Positions 2 through 13,715 of a stretch of 14,729 nt of DNA are shown one piece after another. The position numbers and the translations under genes are program-made. Origin of the DNA: Candidatus Falkowbacteria bacterium CG1_02_41_21. Its GTDB lineage: Bacteria > Patescibacteriota > Patescibacteriia > Patescibacteriales > UBA12465. Location of the stretch: contig MNUV01000052.1 of assembly GCA_001871235.1 (NCBI GenBank), positions 1 to 14,729 on the forward strand. The letters run 5' to 3'. Each line of letters starts with the position of its first letter. Position 1 is the stretch's first letter. The notes under the pieces are model-generated. The model was not told the origin of the DNA. It was given only the letters and a program-made list of their open reading frames with translations, and made no database searches.

Positions 2-235
2 TTTACTAGAGTGAAACGCCCACAGACCAACGGCAAAGCCGAAAGAGTTATCCAAACTATCATGAGAGAGTGGTGTCGGATCAATGAATTTAAAAATCAC
101 GAAGAAAGAAGAAGATCATTACAAAGATATGTGGCTCGCTATAATTATGAGAGGGCTCATTCAGCTCTAAATGGCTTAACCCCCATTCAGAGGATCACCA
201 ATTACTTTGCCAGCCAAAGTGTATACAACGCTTGA
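2..235 (+). CDS. DDE transposase/integrase, C-terminal fragment (5' end outside the window)
   Basis: This is the last part of a retroviral-integrase-type (rve) transposase of the IS481/IS3 kind. The frame is open to the window edge: Phe-Thr-Arg-Val lies before the Val-Lys-Arg-Pro-Gln-Thr-Asn-Gly-Lys-Ala-Glu-Arg motif, so the GTG at 11 is an internal valine and not a start. The Glu in Gly-Lys-Ala-Glu-Arg is the expected third residue of the catalytic DDE triad; both Asp residues would lie upstream of the window. The rest (YNYERAHSALNGLTPIQR) is the usual C-terminal signature. A TGA stop follows SVYNA. I could not identify a terminal inverted repeat after it, so the right end of the element is not mapped. 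Family level (IS481 versus IS3) is uncertain. Confidence 0.85.
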   Translation, partial: FTRVKRPQTNGKAERVIQTIMREWCRINEFKNHEERRRSLQRYVARYNYERAHSALNGLTPIQRITNYFASQSVYNA

Positions 236-4452: not shown

Positions 4453-6096
4453 ATGTTTAAGAATTTGTTTAGTCGTCAAATAAACAGTATCACCATGGCC
4501 GCCGCTTTAGTCGGTGTGTCTTCTTTACTGTCGCGTTTTTTGGGGGTTTTCCGGGATAGAATTTTGGCCGGACAATTTGGTGCCGGTGAATCTTTGGATA
4601 TTTATTACAGCGCTTTTCGAATCCCGGACTTGGTTTATAATCTTTTGATCCTGGGAGCTTTATCCGCCGGCTTCATTCCCATCTTTACCGGGTTGATCAA
4701 GGACTTCAAGAGTTACAAGAGTACTGGCTTGTTCAAATATCTAAACTCCGAGGCTTGGGACCTAGCCAATAACCTTTTAAATATTTTAATGTTGGCCTTG
4801 ATTGGGTTAAGTGTCTTGGGTATTATTTTTGCTCCGAACTTAATCGCTTTAATTTCTCCCGGATTTTCGCCCGAGGCCAAAGAAACTACGGTTGCTTTGA
4901 CTCGGATTATGTTTTTGTCACCACTATTTTTGGGAATCTCCGGTATCTTGGGAGTAGTTTTGCAGTCTTTCAAAAACTTTTTAGTCTATTCGCTGGCTCC
5001 AATTTTGTATAACGTCGGTATTATCGTCGGAGCTTTATGGCTCTTTCCCTTAATGGGTATTCCAGGTTTGGCTTGGGGTGTCGTCCTGGGAGCTTTTTTA
5101 CATATGGTGATCCAAATCCCGATTGTTTATAACCTGGGTTGGCGCTATCGCCTGGCGATTAATTTCAGAAATAAGAATTTGATTAAAATCGCTCAAATGA
5201 TGATTCCACGGACTCTGAGTTTGGCGATTTCCCAAATTAATTTAGTAATTATTACCATCATCGCCTCAGAACTGGTTAGCGGTTCTTTATCGGTTTTCAA
5301 TTTCGCCAATAATCTGCAATCTTTCCCGGTGGGCATCTTTGGAATTTCTTTTGCAGTCGCGGCTTTTCCGGCTTTGTCGGCCGCCGCTCATGACAACAAA
5401 AAAATGATCAGTCATTTTTCTTCGGCCACTCGGCAAATATTATTTTTTATCATTCCCGCTACCGTTTTATTGATTACTCTCCGGGCCCAGATTATTCGAA
5501 TTATTTTGGGAACTGGTTCTTTCGATTGGCAAGATACTATTTTGACGATGGACACCTTAGGATTTTTTGCTTTAAGTCTTTTCGCCCAGGCGATAATTCC
5601 ACTTCAGACCAGACTCTTTTATGCCCGGCAAGATTCCAAGACGCCATTTATCATCGGCATCTTTGTCGTTGTTGCTAATATCTTTTTGTCCCTCTGGCTC
5701 TCCGGTCGTTTGGGTGTGGCCGGTTTGGCTTTGGCTTTTTCCATCTCCAGCATTTTGAATTTTATTTTGCTTTGGGGCTGGCTGTATATCAAAATCGGCA
5801 ACATGGATCAGACTAAGATTTTAATTTCCACCGCTAAGTTCTCAGCGGCCGGAATTGCTGCTGGTTTTGTTGTTCAAATGATGAAAAATATAGTCTGGCC
5901 TTATATTGATATGACAACTTTTTTTGGAGTTTTGGCTCAAGGTACGGCTGCCGCCCTGTTTGGGATTATTACCTATCTGCTGGTTTGCGCTCTACTGAAG
6001 AGTGAAGAGTTTTACGACTTTCTGAGTCTTATCAAGCGCAAATTATCTTGGCGTAAGGTCAAGGTGGGCGATCAAGGCGAGGTTCGGGGCTTGTAG
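4453..6096 (+). CDS. murJ: Lipid II flippase MurJ (MviN family)
   Basis: It moves lipid II, the peptidoglycan precursor, from the inner to the outer face of the cytoplasmic membrane. The 547-residue protein is hydrophobic throughout, consistent with the family's usual 14 helices. The N-terminus carries the signature SSLLSRFLGVFRD (23-35) followed by the DIYYSAFRIPDL region (49-60) and LGALSAGFIPIF (67-78). By alignment from memory, Arg28, Arg34 and Asp49 match functional E. coli residues Arg18, Arg24 and Asp39. E. coli Arg52 and Glu57 appear to be Tyr62 and Leu67 here. The short C-terminal tail is basic and cytoplasmic. It starts 5 bases after the acetyl-CoA synthetase stop and has no promoter of its own, so the two are co-transcribed; the terminator at 6130-6157 ends the unit. 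Confidence 0.93.
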   Translation: MFKNLFSRQINSITMAAALVGVSSLLSRFLGVFRDRILAGQFGAGESLDIYYSAFRIPDLVYNLLILGALSAGFIPIFTGLIKDFKSYKSTGLFKYLNSEAWDLANNLLNILMLALIGLSVLGIIFAPNLIALISPGFSPEAKETTVALTRIMFLSPLFLGISGILGVVLQSFKNFLVYSLAPILYNVGIIVGALWLFPLMGIPGLAWGVVLGAFLHMVIQIPIVYNLGWRYRLAINFRNKNLIKIAQMMIPRTLSLAISQINLVIITIIASELVSGSLSVFNFANNLQSFPVGIFGISFAVAAFPALSAAAHDNKKMISHFSSATRQILFFIIPATVLLITLRAQIIRIILGTGSFDWQDTILTMDTLGFFALSLFAQAIIPLQTRLFYARQDSKTPFIIGIFVVVANIFLSLWLSGRLGVAGLALAFSISSILNFILLWGWLYIKIGNMDQTKILISTAKFSAAGIAAGFVVQMMKNIVWPYIDMTTFFGVLAQGTAAALFGIITYLLVCALLKSEEFYDFLSLIKRKLSWRKVKVGDQGEVRGL

Positions 6097-6129
6097 TTCG
6101 ATTTAGCAAAAATATTTTTTGGGCAAGAA

Positions 6130-6157
6130 AAAAAGAGGCTGTTTTGGGCCTCTTTTT
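6130..6157. terminator. Bidirectional terminator, murJ / exported-protein gene A
   Basis: Bases 6130-6139 (AAAAAGAGGC) pair with 6148-6157 (GCCTCTTTTT). On the plus strand it ends murJ with five T; on the minus strand GCCTC runs into seven T and ends the 6178-6684 gene. The 30-base block 6116-6145 that includes the left arm is repeated at 6858-6887 with one mismatch. Confidence 0.85.
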
Positions 6158-6177
6158 ATATTCCTTTATTTGTCTGC

Positions 6178-6684
6178 TTATTTTTGAACTGCTAGAAAAC
6201 TGCAATGTTCAAAAAGTTCGGGGAAGAGAGATATTATAGTAATAGAACTTTTAGAATTGCATATTTCTAAATAAGGTGCATCATCTTCATTGTTTGAATC
6301 CTCTTCATGGTCTGCATCTAGAATAGAGCCGAGAGCGACAACTTCGATATGCTTACCTGATTTCGGTTGAGTTTCGCCGAAAGCAAGAAGTTCAAAAAAG
6401 GTAGCAGGGCGACAGCCAGCTTTATCCATTATAGATATAGCATCTTTTAAAGAAGTGCCTTTGTCAAAAGTGAAAAGTTTGGTTGATACTTCAATATTTT
6501 TTCCAACCAACTCAGCCGACAAGGGAAATTTTTCAGTGATAAGACTGCAATGAACATATGGGGTAAGCATTTGTTCTGGCGTCTTAGAATAATTAACGGT
6601 TAACAGTTCGGAGTTATTGTTTTGAGCTTTACAAGCACAAAACACAAACATTAAAATTGTGGATATCAAAAATAACTTTTTCAT
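6178..6684 (-). CDS. Exported protein A with CPR-type C-terminal domain
   Basis: This is a 168-residue protein. Residues 1-20 form a signal peptide (MKKLFLISTILMFVFCACKA) with likely cleavage before QNNN; Cys16 or Cys18 could make it a lipoprotein, but the lipobox is poor. Residues 88-168 match a pattern I recall from many short CPR proteins: GCRPATFFELLAFG, then VVALGS, PYLEI and a terminal CSFLAVQK. That family has no function known to me. Residues 123-135 are strongly acidic (DADHEEDSNNEDD), a possible metal-binding or linker stretch. The middle (about 50-87) resembles the part that normally precedes this domain. It is transcribed from the promoter at 6798-6826, through a structured leader, to the terminator at 6130-6157; these frames are shared with gene B next to it. 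Recognition of the domain is from memory and was not searched. Confidence 0.75.
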   Translation of the reverse strand: MKKLFLISTILMFVFCACKAQNNNSELLTVNYSKTPEQMLTPYVHCSLITEKFPLSAELVGKNIEVSTKLFTFDKGTSLKDAISIMDKAGCRPATFFELLAFGETQPKSGKHIEVVALGSILDADHEEDSNNEDDAPYLEICNSKSSITIISLFPELFEHCSFLAVQK

Positions 6685-6703
6685 GATTATTGGATTTAAG
6701 GTT
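6674..6703. repeat. 30-bp start-codon block, copy A
   Basis: Identical at all 30 positions to 8018-8047. Read on the minus strand it begins AACCTTAAATCC, continues AATAATC, and ends with ATGAAAAAGTT, so it covers the 3' end of the leader and the first three codons and part of the fourth. The protein sequences diverge immediately after this block. Confidence 0.95.
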
Positions 6704-6769
6704 TAGAAATTGAGTTAATTATTGGGCCTATATTAATGATAAGCCAGATAATTAACTCAGTTAACCTTA
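6697..6769 (-). promoter_or_regulatory. Structured 5' leader of gene A (long hairpin)
   Basis: The outer stem pairs TAAGGTT (6697-6703) with AACCTTA (6763-6769). The inner stem pairs TGAGTTAATTAT (6711-6722) perfectly with ATAATTAACTCA (6748-6759); the loop is 25 bases. In the mRNA it ends 12 bases before the AUG and there is no Shine-Dalgarno site. Its flanks are shared with the gene B leader: 6750-6777 matches 8101-8128 at 26 of 28 positions, while the loop differs in sequence and length. Confidence 0.7.
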
Positions 6770-6797
6770 TTTTTCAACGAACTGGTTGTATGGCTGT

Positions 6798-6826
6798 ATT
6801 ATAACATCCTTCTTTAATCTTGTCAA
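6798..6826 (-). promoter_or_regulatory. Perfect-consensus sigma70 promoter of gene A
   Basis: On the minus strand TTGACA (complement of 6821-6826), a 17-bp spacer and TATAAT (complement of 6798-6803), with TG one base before the -10. Both hexamers are exact. The start point should be near 6791, giving a leader of about 107 bases. A small hairpin (GGGGAT 6827-6832 with ATCCCC 6840-6845) abuts the -35 on its upstream side. Confidence 0.85.
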
Positions 6827-6871
6827 GGGGATGATAAAAATCCCCATATTTATTGAGTTTTTGGACAAGAA

Positions 6872-6900
6872 AAAAAGAGGCTGTTTTTTAGCCCCTTTTT
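6872..6900 (-). terminator. Terminator of gene B
   Basis: On the minus strand AGGGGCT/AGCCTCT pairing (6890-6895 with 6877-6882, one G-U pair) is followed by seven T. On the plus strand the same position would be an A-C mismatch, so the hairpin is better suited to minus-strand RNA. The block 6858-6887 equals the gene A block 6116-6145 at 29 of 30 positions. Confidence 0.8.
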
Positions 6901-6909
6901 AAAATGATT

Positions 6910-8028
6910 TTATTCTCCTAGATAGTGAATTTTTTCTACTTTGTTACCAGTTTTTTTGAGGTAAATACCGGCAGGTAAATTTTTATTTAATCCAGAAATT
7001 TTTTGTCCGGATAGATTATAAAATTCGGTTAGTCCCGTAGATTCACTTTTTGGCTTTGGTCTGAATTCATCAATTAAAGTGATGTTTAAATCAAATTTTT
7101 TGATGGTCGTTCTATCAACTAAGATGTAGACTTCATTGTTAAAATATTCAACATCAAAACAATTTTGTTCGGTTAATAGTGTTTGATAACTTTGGCCAAT
7201 ACTGTCCGAATTAACCATATAAATACCATTGCCATTAGCCATAAAAGTTAAACCATCAGGGCTGCTGCAAACGGAGCGAGCTATGCCGCTGTAGGCTGAA
7301 ATTGGATACCATCCCCAGAACTGATGATAAACGAGGTCATTTCCCCCGAAATAATGGTCAGTGATGGTCATGGCATAATCATAGGCGCCAGAAGTATTTG
7401 TTGTGAATGTTTTGGCTGTCTGATTAAACGACATTCCTTCCAGGTTTGGATAGTTATAGAATGTTATATGTCTGTAAACAGCGGTATCTCCGTCCCAAAT
7501 ATAAATAGCCGGCCTTTCAATTAAATCAACTGTGTCCGTATAACTTCCGGCAATAAATATTTCTTCTGAGCTATAACCATTCATTCCCAGAAATAAAGAA
7601 TTGGCCTCTTCGGCTTTTTTAACAAATGAGCCGCTTACTAATTTAAGTAAAAATGAGGTTGTTCCATTTCGTCCAGTGATATAAATATTGCCATCAATAC
7701 CCCAAACACGATAAAGGCAACCACCGGCCGGGTTTGTTAATGATGACCAACTAGAGCCATTGTAATGAAGAATGGCACTGTTACCAACAGCCCAAGCTTC
7801 GTTGGCGGAAATTGGAAAGACTGAAAATAATTCTACCGGCGGCCAGTATTCAAATGTTTGGCCGTTTTTAATAATTATTATTTTTTCACCAACGCTATAA
7901 ATTGCACCGTCATTAGTAATGGCGATATCATCAATAATGCCAGGACCAGAATAAATTTCTGTTAAATTTTGTGCTCTAATAGAAGACAAAATAAACATGA
8001 TTACGATCAAAACTGTAAACTTTTTCAT
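6910..8028 (-). CDS. Exported beta-propeller-like protein B with T9SS-like C-terminal tail
   Basis: This is a 372-residue protein. Residues 1-19 are a signal peptide (MKKFTVLIVIMFILSSIRA) with likely cleavage before QNL. Residues about 25-315 are built of short beta repeats such as ISANEAWAVGNSAILHYNGSSW and SSEEIFIAGSY, typical of WD40/YVTN-like or glycosyl-hydrolase-BNR-like propellers; no catalytic residue is evident. Residues 334-368 (EFYNLSGQKI, then LPAGIYLKKTGNKVEKI) resemble the last part of the Bacteroidota type IX secretion sorting domain, but the usual YPNP segment is missing and the tail is short. A CPR cell has no known outer membrane or T9SS, so the tail either has another role or marks acquired DNA. 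The expression frame (promoter, leader, terminator) is shared with gene A. Confidence 0.78.
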   Translation of the reverse strand: MKKFTVLIVIMFILSSIRAQNLTEIYSGPGIIDDIAITNDGAIYSVGEKIIIIKNGQTFEYWPPVELFSVFPISANEAWAVGNSAILHYNGSSWSSLTNPAGGCLYRVWGIDGNIYITGRNGTTSFLLKLVSGSFVKKAEEANSLFLGMNGYSSEEIFIAGSYTDTVDLIERPAIYIWDGDTAVYRHITFYNYPNLEGMSFNQTAKTFTTNTSGAYDYAMTITDHYFGGNDLVYHQFWGWYPISAYSGIARSVCSSPDGLTFMANGNGIYMVNSDSIGQSYQTLLTEQNCFDVEYFNNEVYILVDRTTIKKFDLNITLIDEFRPKPKSESTGLTEFYNLSGQKISGLNKNLPAGIYLKKTGNKVEKIHYLGE

Positions 8029-8047
8029 GATTATTGGATTTAAGGTT
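8018..8047. repeat. 30-bp start-codon block, copy B
   Basis: Identical to 6674-6703. It covers the ATG and first codons of gene B and the leader bases just upstream. The spacing from the ATG to the outer stem is the same in both copies. Confidence 0.95.
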
Positions 8048-8120
8048 AATACTAATTGGATTAATTACTAATATCACCTAAAACCAGAGATGAATTTAGT
8101 AATTAACCCAATTAACCTTA
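8041..8120 (-). promoter_or_regulatory. Structured 5' leader of gene B (long hairpin)
   Basis: The outer stem pairs TAAGGTT (8041-8047) with AACCTTA (8114-8120). The inner stem pairs 8054-8071 with 8096-8113 over 18 positions; the only non-Watson-Crick position is 8060/8107, A-C on the plus strand but U-G in minus-strand RNA. The loop is 24 bases. Stem bases differ from the gene A leader yet remain paired, which supports a conserved RNA fold in the mRNA. Confidence 0.72.
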
Positions 8121-8146
8121 TTTTTCAAATAACTATTAACAAAAGA

Positions 8147-8175
8147 ATTATAGCATAAACATAGTTTTATGTCAA
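8147..8175 (-). promoter_or_regulatory. Perfect-consensus sigma70 promoter of gene B
   Basis: On the minus strand TTGACA (complement of 8170-8175), 17 bp, TATAAT (complement of 8147-8152), with TGC before the -10. It has the same architecture as the gene A promoter but a different spacer sequence. The start point would be near 8140, with a leader of about 112 bases. Confidence 0.85.
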
Positions 8176-8180
8176 ACAAG

Positions 8181-8260
8181 TTGACCAGAAGGCTAAAATG
8201 CCTTAATATAATAGAGTAATAGCGGGGCGATATATCTTTTTATGTCGCTTTCTTTATATT
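8181..8260 (+). promoter_or_regulatory. lepA promoter region with a leader hairpin and a second -10
   Basis: TTGACC (8181-8186) lies 17 bp before TAATAT (8204-8209), overlapped by TATAAT at 8207-8212. The -35 is only 5 bases from the oppositely directed gene B -35. Downstream, GCGATATA (8227-8234) pairs with TATGTCGC (8241-8248), an 8-bp hairpin with one G-U pair. A second -10-like TATATT (8255-8260) ends 7 bases before the lepA ATG and could drive a leaderless transcript. Confidence 0.55.
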
Positions 8261-10260: not shown

Positions 10261-10324
10261 TTTTGTTCAGTATTATTACTGTAGTGAACAAAATATGACT
10301 TTTTTGTCCACTACAGTAATAACA
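10261..10324. repeat. Overlapping inverted repeats upstream of recJ
   Basis: Repeat 1: TTTTGTTCA (10261-10269) with TGAACAAAA (10285-10293), 9 bp perfect. Repeat 2: 10273-10293 with 10302-10322, 20 of 21 positions paired (only 10287/10308 fails), around an 8-base loop. The arm 10285-10293 belongs to both, so only one fold can form at a time. The motif TTTTGTYCA thus occurs three times in alternating orientation. No T-run follows, so it is not an intrinsic terminator. It ends about 10 bases before the recJ ATG. The rest of 10189-10332 holds only a weak CTAATATTAG palindrome (10226-10235). Confidence 0.8.
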
Positions 10325-10332
10325 TTCAATTT

Positions 10333-12075
10333 ATGTCTAAAATCTGGCAGCTGACGGAAAAATTACCGCCGGCGGTTATGGTCGCCAATCCTAAATATTC
10401 TCCCATTCTTTTGCAATTGCTCTTTAATCGAGGTCTGCAAAAACCGGAGGAAGTAGAGGCCTTTTTTATTGAGGAATTTGGTTCAAATGAATATTTAAAG
10501 CACTATGACCCCTTTTTATTTAGAGATATGGATGAAGCTATTAATCTCATTGTCAGCTGTATTAAGGCTGGTCAGAAGATTATGATTTACGGCGACTATG
10601 ATGCTGACGGAGTAACCGCGACGGCCGTTTTATGGGATACTTTTAAGATTTTAGGGGCTAAGGTGGATTATTATTTGCCTGACAGAGTGACTGAGGGTTA
10701 TGGCATGAACAAGGAAGCCATTGCTAAAATTGTGGCCGATGATTATAAATTGATAGTTACGGTTGATACCGGTACCAGGAATTGGGAAGAGATTGAATAT
10801 GCCAAAAGTCTGGGGCTAGAAGTGATATTGACCGATCATCATGTTCTCTCCGACAACCCGGCCGAAATACCCCAATGCTTGTTTATAAATTGCGCTAACC
10901 AAGGAGATGCTTATCCGTTTAAAACTCTGGCTGGAGTCGGTGTGGCCTTCAAAGTTATTCAAGCGTTAGTGACTCGGTCAAAATTGAATGAAGAGCAAAA
11001 ACAATATTTGATGGAGAGAAGTTTGGACTTGGTAGCTCTCGGGACGGTTTCCGACATGGTGTCGCTTTTGGGAGAGAATAGGTTGTTGGTTAAAAAGGGT
11101 TTGGAAGTTTTGAATCGAACCAAGAGATTGGGTCTGAAAGAATTAATTAGCGTGGCCAAGTTGGGCAACAATGCCACCAAATTAGATTCTTGGAATATCG
11201 GTTTTCAATTAGGCCCGAGATTAAACGCGGCCAGTCGTTTAGGCCATGCCAATAATGCCCTAGAATTAATATTGTCAACTGACTTGGATGAGGTTAAACG
11301 TTTAGCCGGAGAATTAAACCAAAAAAATATTGAACGTCAGGAAATTACCGCTAATATTATGGCTCTGGTGGAAAAAGACATTGATCAAAAAAATATCCCG
11401 GCGATTATTATCAGTGTTTGTGATTTAGAATATGACGTTAAAACTGAGGGTGTGATTGGACTGGTAGCCGGAAAAATCTGCGAGAAATATTATCGTCCGG
11501 CCATAGTCATCACCCGCTCCCAAGATGGTTACAAAGCATCGGGGAGAAGTATTGAAGAGTTTAATTTGATTGAAGCCATTGAAGATTCACGGGAGTTTTT
11601 AGATAAGTATGGCGGACATCCGGCGGCTTGCGGTTTTTCCGTTTATGAACGGGACAAACTGGACAAGTTTATCGCTAAAATTTCTTCCATTGCCACGACT
11701 AAATTAGCCGGCTTGGAATTGGCGCCGAAGTTAAGATTGGACGCTATCTTATTGCCTAAAGATATTAATTTAAATTTAGTGGAAGATATCTCTAAGTTAG
11801 CGCCTTATGGTCAGAATAATCCGCAACCTAAATTCGCGGCTTATGGTTTGACAGTAATGGAACTGGTAACTATGGGTGGAAAAGGAGAACATATTAAATT
11901 GCGCTTGACCGATGGCGTTTCCAGTTTGTGGGCCATAGCTTTTTTCAAAAATAAAGAATTTTCCGAGATTCAAATCGGGAGCCAGGTTGATGTCGCTTAT
12001 TATCTGGATATCAATAATTATAACGGTAGAAGCGAGGTCCAAATGAAGATTATTGATTTGATCCCAACTAAATAA
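10333..12075 (+). CDS. recJ: Single-stranded-DNA-specific 5'-3' exonuclease RecJ
   Basis: It degrades 5'-ended single strands in recombination and repair. The 580-residue length is typical. DHH-family motifs are present: MIYGDYDADGVTATA (85-98; Asp88, Asp90 and Asp92), VTVDTGT (142-148, Asp145), LTDHH (166-170) and ALGTVSDMV (235-243, Asp241), the acidic and histidine ligands for two metal ions. RLNAASRLGHA follows the core. The DHHA1 domain has YGGHPAACGFSV (residues 435-446), where the family has GGHxxAAG; one residue is Cys. The C-terminal part is an OB-fold (GGKGEHIKLRL, DVAYYLDIN). The start directly follows the inverted-repeat region; rnhA follows 13 bases after the stop, so the two are probably co-transcribed. 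Confidence 0.95.
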   Translation: MSKIWQLTEKLPPAVMVANPKYSPILLQLLFNRGLQKPEEVEAFFIEEFGSNEYLKHYDPFLFRDMDEAINLIVSCIKAGQKIMIYGDYDADGVTATAVLWDTFKILGAKVDYYLPDRVTEGYGMNKEAIAKIVADDYKLIVTVDTGTRNWEEIEYAKSLGLEVILTDHHVLSDNPAEIPQCLFINCANQGDAYPFKTLAGVGVAFKVIQALVTRSKLNEEQKQYLMERSLDLVALGTVSDMVSLLGENRLLVKKGLEVLNRTKRLGLKELISVAKLGNNATKLDSWNIGFQLGPRLNAASRLGHANNALELILSTDLDEVKRLAGELNQKNIERQEITANIMALVEKDIDQKNIPAIIISVCDLEYDVKTEGVIGLVAGKICEKYYRPAIVITRSQDGYKASGRSIEEFNLIEAIEDSREFLDKYGGHPAACGFSVYERDKLDKFIAKISSIATTKLAGLELAPKLRLDAILLPKDINLNLVEDISKLAPYGQNNPQPKFAAYGLTVMELVTMGGKGEHIKLRLTDGVSSLWAIAFFKNKEFSEIQIGSQVDVAYYLDINNYNGRSEVQMKIIDLIPTK

Positions 12076-12500: not shown

Positions 12501-13715
12501 TTATTCGCCACAGACGTAAAAATGTTGGCTCAAACCGCATCCACCCCAATCATTAAGAGATATCCATGTTTTGCATTCAATATTAGTTGCCGTACAGCCA
12601 CCTTTATAAGGATAGCCGCTACCGCCCGCTGGATCATTAACATCGGCGATTAAATTATCTTTTTCTCGCCATCCGGTCAGGGCGATAAAATGTCCACCTC
12701 CAGTAAATTTACAATTAGGTTTGTTGGCGGCACTGACCGCAATGACTACAACACAGCCTTCATCTAGTTTTTGTTTAATACCTTCTACCCCCCCTGTGTC
12801 TCCGGCTTGGAGATTATAATATTTAGCTAGTTTTATTAAGCCTGTTCCAGCAGAGCCACTACCGCAAACACGCGCTCCTTGTTGTTCGGCCTGGCGAGTG
12901 AAAGCTTGGAGATCGGTTACACTCGTAAATTTATTAACGGCCATAAACGTGGACAAGACACCACAACCGGAAGTGCATAAATTAGGATTACCATTATAAG
13001 GAGACACCGGATTGGCTTGGGTGCCATATTTTTTTTCATCTTTTCCTCCGTTGCTCGGACAGATTTTATTTTTTTCGTTGTAAACTATTTTCTTGCCCTC
13101 TTCACTACATTGGCGGAATAAAGGAACGCCATGGCTAGAGCTAATTGAGGTTGGGCCTTCAATTTGTGCTTCTTCCGGCAAATTAAAAGTATCCTCCACT
13201 ACGCTGAGTTTTATGGATTTAAATCCGACTAAGTCGGGATTAACCTCATTTAACAACACATAAGAGGTGAACATTATCAACATTCCGGTCAGGGCGCCGG
13301 TAATCCATGATTTAGCCTCCGATATTCTGGTGGCGTTACCGGTTGACGTCAGATAAATCACGCCGCCAATCATTAGAGCTAAGGCCGCTAAAATACCGAC
13401 GATGCCCATGGCATAATTATAGATAGCTTTAATATAAATTGATATCCAGGGTAAACTGCACGATGTCCGGTCGCCTTCAGTGGTGCAAATGGCGGGAGTG
13501 TCCGAAGCTAATTTATCCAGTCCGGGAATTTTTACTTGTAGTTTTAATATCGGGTCCAATGTAATGAACGGTTTTTTGGTGGTAGCCGCTGGAGTTGAGA
13601 CTGGTGTAGTTGAGGTATTTGTTTGGGCGCTGGCGACAATCGGACAAATCAGCATTGTTCCTAAAAACAAAAAAATAAATAAAACTTTATTTTTTCTGGT
13701 CCAAACTTTTTTCAT
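12501..13715 (-). CDS. VirB2-like T4SS pilin module fused to a C39/papain-like cysteine peptidase domain
   Basis: This 404-residue protein starts with a signal peptide (about 1-30, cut after VASA). Residues about 92-160 form a two-helix module: YNYAMGIVGILAALALMIGGVIYLTSTGN, then a polar EAKSW turn, then a second helix ending SYVLLNEVNPDLV. This pattern is that of the Patescibacteria T4SS-pilin/VirB2-like family (PF18895 by memory). After a linker, residues about 225-400 form a peptidase-like domain: nucleophile Cys251 in CTSGCGVLSTFMAVN, His342 in GGGHFIALTGW and Asn360/Asp361 in ADVNDP. This Cys-His-Asn/Asp order fits peptidase C39-like (PF13529) folds. Ten further Cys in 203-402, besides Cys251, suggest disulfides and an extracellular domain. 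It starts 3 bases after the porB stop and is likely co-transcribed with it. Confidence 0.8.
   Translation of the reverse strand: MKKVWTRKNKVLFIFLFLGTMLICPIVASAQTNTSTTPVSTPAATTKKPFITLDPILKLQVKIPGLDKLASDTPAICTTEGDRTSCSLPWISIYIKAIYNYAMGIVGILAALALMIGGVIYLTSTGNATRISEAKSWITGALTGMLIMFTSYVLLNEVNPDLVGFKSIKLSVVEDTFNLPEEAQIEGPTSISSSHGVPLFRQCSEEGKKIVYNEKNKICPSNGGKDEKKYGTQANPVSPYNGNPNLCTSGCGVLSTFMAVNKFTSVTDLQAFTRQAEQQGARVCGSGSAGTGLIKLAKYYNLQAGDTGGVEGIKQKLDEGCVVVIAVSAANKPNCKFTGGGHFIALTGWREKDNLIADVNDPAGGSGYPYKGGCTATNIECKTWISLNDWGGCGLSQHFYVCGE

Follow-up and report, generated by a model that had tools for sequence, protein, structure and literature searches.

A 14,729-nucleotide (nt) stretch of DNA from Candidatus Falkowbacteria bacterium CG1_02_41_21 (contig MNUV01000052.1; the whole stretch is called the window here) carries, between murJ and lepA, two tandem single-gene units that we call cassettes A and B. 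They are probably two members of a lineage-specific family of mobile cassettes that swap open reading frames (ORFs) behind a leader predicted to load the NusB-S10 pair. Each unit would consist of a sigma-70-type promoter, a leader of ~100 nt in which a boxA-like motif is followed by a long hairpin ending near the start codon, and one ORF; a terminator would also belong to the unit in the window's cassettes. Across the family, we observed a common structured leader before unrelated ORFs, differing occupancy of the murJ-lepA site, and enrichment at transfer RNA (tRNA) 3' ends, as well as a large serine recombinase gene beside six copies, one of them with an att-like repeat of the tRNA end.

The two cassettes and the leader family

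Genes A and B lie on the minus strand and the flanking murJ and lepA genes on the plus strand. An earlier note on this DNA had described two exported proteins in one duplicated expression frame, and both ORFs and all of the repeat blocks that it named are present where it placed them. The start block is identical in the two cassettes (6674-6703 and 8018-8047, 30 of 30 positions), the terminator block is 97% identical (6116-6145 versus 6858-6887), and the distal block is 89% identical across 35 nt (6749-6783 versus 8100-8134). The start and distal blocks had been taken for separate elements, but they are the two arms of one ~75-nt hairpin that fills the space from promoter to ATG, with a folding energy of -33.9 kcal/mol in leader B and -26.6 kcal/mol in leader A (z scores in Table 1). 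The promoters do have the identical design ascribed to them, TTGACA-17-TATAAT in both, but they are not duplicates, since their identity (0.51) and that of their spacers (0.46) are both at background; judged from sequence, they have a common design and no recent common ancestry. The terminator block, named as a further part of the reusable frame, is common to A and B but is matched nowhere else in the genome of origin, where this pair was the sole match in a search with a 1.6-kb query (window 6600-8200, which spans cassette B but takes in just the 5' portion of A).

The same search found one place outside the window, a third leader (C37:704-823, E 3.4e-12), and leader models found weaker copies at C44:174 and C43:156 in this assembly, which is 85.6% complete. 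The third leader precedes another exported-looking ORF, and the frame that begins at the leader ATG breaks after a few codons. Its cassette (L006 1-3166) is flanked by two genes that we take to be transposase-like, the adjoining one presumably of the IS200 type. Across the three leader copies of this genome, the ends are conserved and the hairpin arms vary yet mostly keep pairing.

A covariance model built from these three copies (R1) matched 29 of 98 relatives. A second model (R2), built on an alignment of 48 sequences (A4) that are a hand-picked subset of matches found earlier with a structure model, hit 33 of the order's 111 genomes, namely 31 of the 39 in the window's family (f1) and two in family f8, with none outside these two families. 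Across a sample of 379 genomes of the phylum, R2 matched only the genome of origin (G000) and G003, both in f1. These scans of order and phylum used strict filters and few candidates per genome, with which weak copies can be lost; the E values of the covariance models are rough, and most genomes are fragmented assemblies. From 120 plus 48 model matches, 49 were dropped (47 weaker matches on the opposite strand and two repeats of the same place), leaving a set of 119 leader copies in 34 genomes. One of 81 matches listed earlier (L049:3371) proved to be a GC-rich hairpin and not a leader, and was later excluded. The start codon lies at a single fixed model position in 103 of the 119 copies, and in 116 it is no more than 18 nt away from the end of the model, a regularity that is partly built in because the models include the ATG. 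A promoter of the form TTGAC-16..20-TAnnnT was found upstream of 99 leaders.

In the 48-sequence alignment, 94.3% of cells are paired and two-sided changes occur in 17 of 20 pairs, a result reached by 0 of 500 shuffles; these counts lean towards the structure because a structure model had served to find the sequences, from which the structure was in turn derived. Pairing falls to 22-52% once the partners slide by 1 to 3 columns, and the upper stem is conserved. We also found a wobble bias, with 143 GU cells compared to 16 AC or CA cells, which would be wobble pairs on the other strand, and this excess argues that the leader acts as RNA in the direction of the gene and not as a DNA palindrome. 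A known RNA family was rejected as a candidate, since an Rfam scan of the window and L006 gave four matches at E values up to 1, all below the gathering score. A phage origin of the window unit was likewise rejected, as it had no match in phage records. A tight, insensitive leader pattern matched one record among all named genomes, Candidatus Falkowbacteria bacterium CG1_02_37_21, and none in viral_contigs.

Cargo, sites and recombinases

The earlier note proposed that reading frames are replaced and control parts retained, and the family bears this out: the ORFs behind the 119 leaders (median, 176 amino acids [aa]) fall into 93 clusters, 77 of which are singletons. In a Pfam scan of 109 cargo ORFs, from which 10 that were short, cut at contig ends, or glmS-like had been left out, 13 families were matched, 12 of them by a single member, and most ORFs had no match. 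The further proposal of a secretion-specific module is not supported in that form. An N-terminal hydrophobic segment is present in 73 of 119 cargo ORFs versus 99 of 363 neighbours, so predicted exported or membrane proteins are enriched among the cargo and not exclusive to it; with 46 ORFs lacking such a segment, we rejected a secretion-only module.

Genes A and B differ in their homologs. For gene A, 15 relatives were found (itself not counted), and within three pairs among P0003, P0004, and P0006, plus the pair P0007/P0009, a stretch of 103 residues is identical, with 13 to 17 differences in the last 43. An identical body with a variable C-terminus is the pattern of proteins diversified by retroelements, and these relatives of gene A (P0003-P0009) look like targets of a diversity-generating retroelement. 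The best Foldseek matches of the gene A model are weak C-type lectins (best E 0.14), and the gene B model (mean pLDDT 66) matches propellers (Tako8, YCF48; best E 1.3e-8) with modest TM-scores. A homolog of gene B in G001, 48% identical, has its own leader at a different site. A type IX-like sorting tail on gene B was rejected for want of an NCBIfam match.

Leaders before non-homologous ORFs resemble each other more if they come from the same genome than if they come from different ones (score 0.260 versus 0.231; 0 of 2,000 permutations), and the nearest leader lies in the same genome for 21 of 119 copies, with 4.4 expected. In the tandem pair of G009:C5, identities of promoter, spacer, and leader are.92, 1.0, and.86, compared to.45-.47 for upstream DNA and.44-.52 for the ORFs (background). 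The corresponding values are.88,.90, and.82 for G014:C1:413266 versus G003:C9:595, and.90,.90, and.88 for G015:C11 versus G003:C6, which belong to two genera; ORFs are at background in both comparisons. In the latter pair, the adjoining serine recombinases are 89% identical and the DNA between recombinase and leader is conserved too (.80-.83). The stretch past the stop codon exceeds background in a few other pairs (for example,.72 and.73). Several loci have neighbours in common but unrelated ORFs after their leaders, for example G026:C50 compared with G029:C12 and G084:C4:40991 compared with G016:C25. Furthermore, 19 cassettes stand in eight same-strand arrays of up to four. Recombination between conserved flanks, which had been suggested as the generator of the cassettes, would be possible.

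Relatives lack this pair at their murJ-lepA site, as the earlier note had anticipated. We examined lepA loci in 29 relatives, from 32 with a lepA match, and found murJ beside lepA in 22, with a space of <120 bp in 15 of these and of 567 to 1,382 bp in the other 7. The window has 2,172 bp between the two genes, compared to about 100 bp in G002, a genome of the same genus whose lepA is 87% identical; the alignment with G002 holds on the left flank up to the end of murJ and resumes on the right flank at TTGACC (8181), the putative lepA -35 element. By this alignment, the window's two cassettes are a ~2.1-kb insertion that is missing from G002. The leader model found no convincing copy in the 29 lepA loci (next match, E 0.09), and lepA was not found in G001, the other same-genus assembly searched. 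By eye, the longer murJ-lepA space of G008 and G015 (L264, L266) appears to hold another small ORF, preceded in G015 by a different hairpin, which hints at an insertion hot spot.

Cassettes are also found behind tRNA genes. A tRNA gene in the same orientation lies within 450 nt upstream of 17 of 119 cassette ORFs versus 13 of 391 neighbour ORFs (Fisher p 5e-5); a further 7 of 391 neighbours have an upstream tRNA in the other orientation, whereas all 17 of the cassette ORFs are in the same orientation. In four further cassettes, a downstream tRNA within 300 nt has its 3' end facing the cassette, and in five loci the promoter begins directly at the tRNA end. We compared ORFs at 21 tRNA loci, which include 14 of the 20 loci within 300 nt of a tRNA and omit 6. 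Behind tRNA-Tyr, five mutually unrelated ORFs were found in five genomes, 74 to 1,865 nt away, with a common downstream neighbour in four of the five loci; behind tRNA-His, five loci hold four ORF families of 49 to 216 aa, 40 to 1,228 nt away.

Six cassettes lie ~300 to 500 nt from a divergent large serine recombinase gene with Resolvase, Recombinase, and Zn ribbon domains, one gene being broken, and in five of these six loci a tRNA gene stands at the recombinase 3' end; tRNA-linked cassettes also occur without a recombinase. The recombinase of G027:C12, together with the leader, its cargo, and one more ORF, is enclosed by a 17-nt repeat of the tRNA-Ser 3' end whose copies are 3,653 bp apart, and G001:C26 has a 14-nt repeat of a tRNA 3' end. 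Repeats at the other tRNA-linked loci are weak or absent, and a search with min_length 22 gave nothing useful in four loci. A 23-nt match in G001:C17 lies in the 5' part of the tRNA and was not counted as an att repeat. The recombinase's phage relatives are all <60% identical to it, with 22 to 28% among the matches listed. The contig of the third cassette (C37) also holds a distant serine recombinase (10409-11866) that is 32% identical to a leader-adjoining one. In L060, a serine recombinase gene (5116-6693) covers all of a tRNA-Ser gene that lies on the other strand (6591-6678), so that its C-terminus is encoded by tRNA antisense.

The features of the window's two cassettes are collected in Table 1. 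Outside them, an inverted repeat of 28 nt (86%), with 8 nt in the loop, lies between lepA and a recJ-like gene (10266-10329), and all of its Rfam matches are below the gathering score. A gene on the minus strand (12501-13715) encodes a protein that fuses a type IV secretion pilin domain to a C39-like peptidase domain. At the contig edge, an ORF on the plus strand (11-235) resembles the end of an IS3/IS481-type transposase.

Table 1. Cassette features in the window (plus-strand numbering)
Feature	Position	Strand	Basis and remarks
Cargo gene A	6178-6684	minus	168 aa; ORF listing; exported-looking; related to a family whose C-terminus is hypervariable
Cargo gene B	6910-8028	minus	372 aa; N-terminal hydrophobic signal; beta-propeller-like model
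Promoter of cassette A (TTGACA-17-TATAAT)	6798..6826	minus	Read from sequence; TGTCAA 6821-6826, ATTATA 6798-6803 (plus-strand letters)
Promoter of cassette B (TTGACA-17-TATAAT)	8147..8175	minus	Read from sequence; TGTCAA 8170-8175, ATTATA 8147-8152 (plus-strand letters)
boxA-like motif, leader A	6770..6782	minus	Motif pattern
boxA-like motif, leader B	8121..8133	minus	One mismatch to family pattern
Leader hairpin A	6698..6770	minus	Fold z -5.7; covariation
Leader hairpin B	8042..8120	minus	Fold z -6.1; covariation in 48-sequence alignment
Terminator-like hairpin, cassette A	6116..6153	minus	Repeat and fold analysis
Terminator-like hairpin, cassette B	6858..6901	minus	Repeat and fold analysis
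Inserted two-cassette unit between murJ and lepA	6105..8180, ends approximate	minus	Comparison with same-genus G002

The boxA-like motif and readings of the leader

A motif of the form G-N-[TA]-C-N-T-T-N-A-[AC]-A stands directly 5' of the hairpin, in its strict form in 92 of 119 leaders. The same strict motif was found upstream of 16S ribosomal RNA (rRNA) in 12 of 22 loci of relatives, compared to 0.8 expected and 3 on the antisense strand; widening the pattern at its second base raised this count from 10 to 12 of 22. No 16S gene was found in the window's own assembly, and the comparison covers the relatives' rRNA leaders. R1 begins in the middle of the motif, and 66 of 81 listed matches fit the anchoring pattern; the first G of the motif, which neither R1 nor that pattern requires, is conserved in 98% of those 66, and by eye several of the 15 others look one mismatch off. 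The gamma-proteobacterial boxA, given as GYTCTTTAANA in PMC5725501, resembles the motif of this family. As a separate observation on the rRNA leaders (L113-L134), a small hairpin, TTGATGCTAATTGGCATCAA or a variant of it, recurs upstream of 16S in many relatives.

A single NusB match was found in 28 of 31 genomes, the window's own among them, and one NusG match each in 30 of 31. No second NusG-like protein of the LoaP type was found in this search, and we rejected a specialized NusG as the factor acting on the leader. The RNA-binding domain of Rho was detected in 0 of 21 genomes of the order, the window's own included, and in 9 of 14 control genomes. With no Rho found, the textbook anti-Rho role of boxA is unlikely to apply, and protection of foreign genes from Rho was dropped as an explanation. 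For Escherichia coli, it is reported that Nus factors act at rRNA primarily by promoting the folding of RNA (PMC5725501) and that, at suhB, which has boxA in its 5' untranslated region (UTR), Nus factors lower translation. Shine-Dalgarno-like motifs are rare before cassette ORFs (16 of 119) and neighbour genes (10 of 292) alike. We regard NusB-S10 recruitment as the likeliest role of the leader, in which the hairpin may serve as a folding or processing stem beside the start codon.

In the scenario that we propose, serine-recombinase elements that target tRNA 3' ends would bring cassettes into genomes as their cargo; the cassettes would then lose the recombinase and be duplicated into arrays or moved elsewhere, with ORFs exchanged by recombination anchored in the conserved promoter-leader block. 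The boxA-like motif would load the housekeeping NusB-S10 pair onto the nascent transcript, and motif and hairpin together would form a self-contained, rRNA-leader-like signal that makes transcription, folding, or translation of a new gene independent of its site. A bolder form of this proposal, which we offer tentatively as one possibility, is a new type of mobile cassette in which ORFs are exchanged on a platform that mimics an rRNA leader and recruits the ribosomal transcription machinery for instant expression anywhere.

Several observations weigh against this mobile-cassette proposal. A recombinase lies near no more than 6 of 119 copies, with one of the six genes broken, and one of these loci (G003:C9:87703) has no tRNA gene that we could find. 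Among the family's 14 top recombinase matches (E <= 1e-150), only those 6 adjoin a leader, and with the other 8 lacking one, recombinase and leader are not obligate partners. No tRNA gene lies within 450 nt upstream of 102 of the 119 ORFs, a clear repeat of the tRNA 3' end is present at only one tRNA-linked locus (17 nt, with one other of 14 nt), and in the window no tRNA gene was found; a recombinase was not noticed among its listed ORFs either, and the promoters of its two cassettes are unrelated. The strict motif is absent from 27 of 119 leaders and from 10 of 22 rRNA leaders, and the missing Rho bears on what such a motif could do. Finally, homologous ORFs keep both site and leader (identity.96) in G031 and G062, so some cassettes are inherited whole.

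The last point could be extended to the whole family, which would then be an old, vertically inherited regulon with the leader as a selected regulatory RNA and the ORFs as ancient duplicates or fast-evolving genes, without any swapping. Constraint on the sequence and structure of the leader and the missing Pfam match for most ORFs agree with that explanation, as does the G031/G062 case. We nevertheless consider it unlikely, since promoter spacers, which are free to vary, are 90 to 100% identical in three pairs with background-level ORFs, 89%-identical recombinases adjoin unrelated cargo, ORF lengths behind tRNA-His vary between 49 and 216 aa, and the G002 murJ-lepA site has no cassettes. For the window pair alone, the leader and terminator blocks common to A and B in tandem could reflect a simple tandem duplication after which one ORF diverged. 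That history is barely credible given that A and B have different homologs, that the B homolog of G001 stands behind its own leader at another site, that the window promoters are at background identity, and that the two models suggest different folds, with a weak likeness to C-type lectins for A and a likeness to propellers for B.

Other explanations concern what the leader does. It might be an ordinary regulatory or stabilizing 5' UTR, such as a processing stem or a ligand or protein sensor, with an incidental likeness to boxA; the upper stem is conserved, the end of the hairpin near the start codon could act on translation, and 27 of the 119 copies lack the strict motif. Because the motif agrees with the one in rRNA leaders of relatives and follows shortly after the promoter, and because NusB is present in 28 of 31 genomes, we think this rather doubtful. 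The hairpin could instead be an attC-like DNA recombination site used by a recombinase, with the RNA fold as a by-product, an idea to which the tandem arrays (19 of 119 cassettes in 8 arrays of up to 4) and the conserved ends with variable arms lend some appeal. It is very improbable in view of the wobble bias of 143 versus 16, which a DNA palindrome leaves unexplained, and of the position of the hairpin between promoter and ATG and not 3' of the ORF; the canonical attC core was also not seen by eye.

Comparison with known systems

Gene gain and expression in the reduced Patescibacteria are poorly known. Here, one covariance model tags ~120 accessory genes in one family, many of them predicted to be exported or membrane-bound and most without a Pfam match, and these genes are candidates for interaction with other cells. 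A boxA-like signal outside rRNA, in genomes where no Rho is detectable, also makes a role of boxA without Rho directly testable. Judged by titles and abstract starts, none of the papers listed in our searches of open-licence PubMed Central (PMC) describes this leader-cassette family.

Integron gene cassettes are single-gene units with tandem arrays and exchangeable ORFs. The cassettes described here have the same traits of unit, array, and apparent exchange but differ in having their own promoter and a 5' leader with an RNA-like hairpin; the leader hairpins were inspected for the attC core by eye only, with no search made for an integron integrase. Phage morons also consist of one gene each and are autonomous through a promoter and terminator of their own, like the cassettes, but the cassettes are chromosomal in this lineage, with the window unit unmatched in phage records. 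In lambda nut sites, boxA is followed by the boxB hairpin in the leader; the order is the same here, whereas the cassette hairpin is much longer, and 30 of 31 genomes gave a single NusG match each (no search was aimed at a phage N-like protein). Serine-integrase elements are the known comparison for a tRNA-end repeat that encloses a serine recombinase, an arrangement also seen in G027:C12.

Three further systems invite comparison. LoaP is a NusG-family factor that acts on a terminator in the leader, and the dfn leader hairpin serves antitermination (PMC12691694); the cassettes also have a leader hairpin but differ in the single NusG found per genome and in the position of the hairpin directly before the ATG. 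The cassettes resemble tRNA-integrated genomic islands (PMC4383910) in their place behind tRNA 3' ends, and differ from these islands and from serine-integrase elements in their very small cargo, in one common RNA leader, and in the lack of a nearby recombinase at most copies. Non-rRNA genes controlled by boxA, such as suhB (PMC5725501), likewise carry boxA in the 5' UTR of a single protein-coding gene, resembling the boxA of rRNA leaders; in the cassettes, by contrast, a conserved long hairpin follows the motif, no Rho was found, and the same arrangement precedes many unrelated genes.

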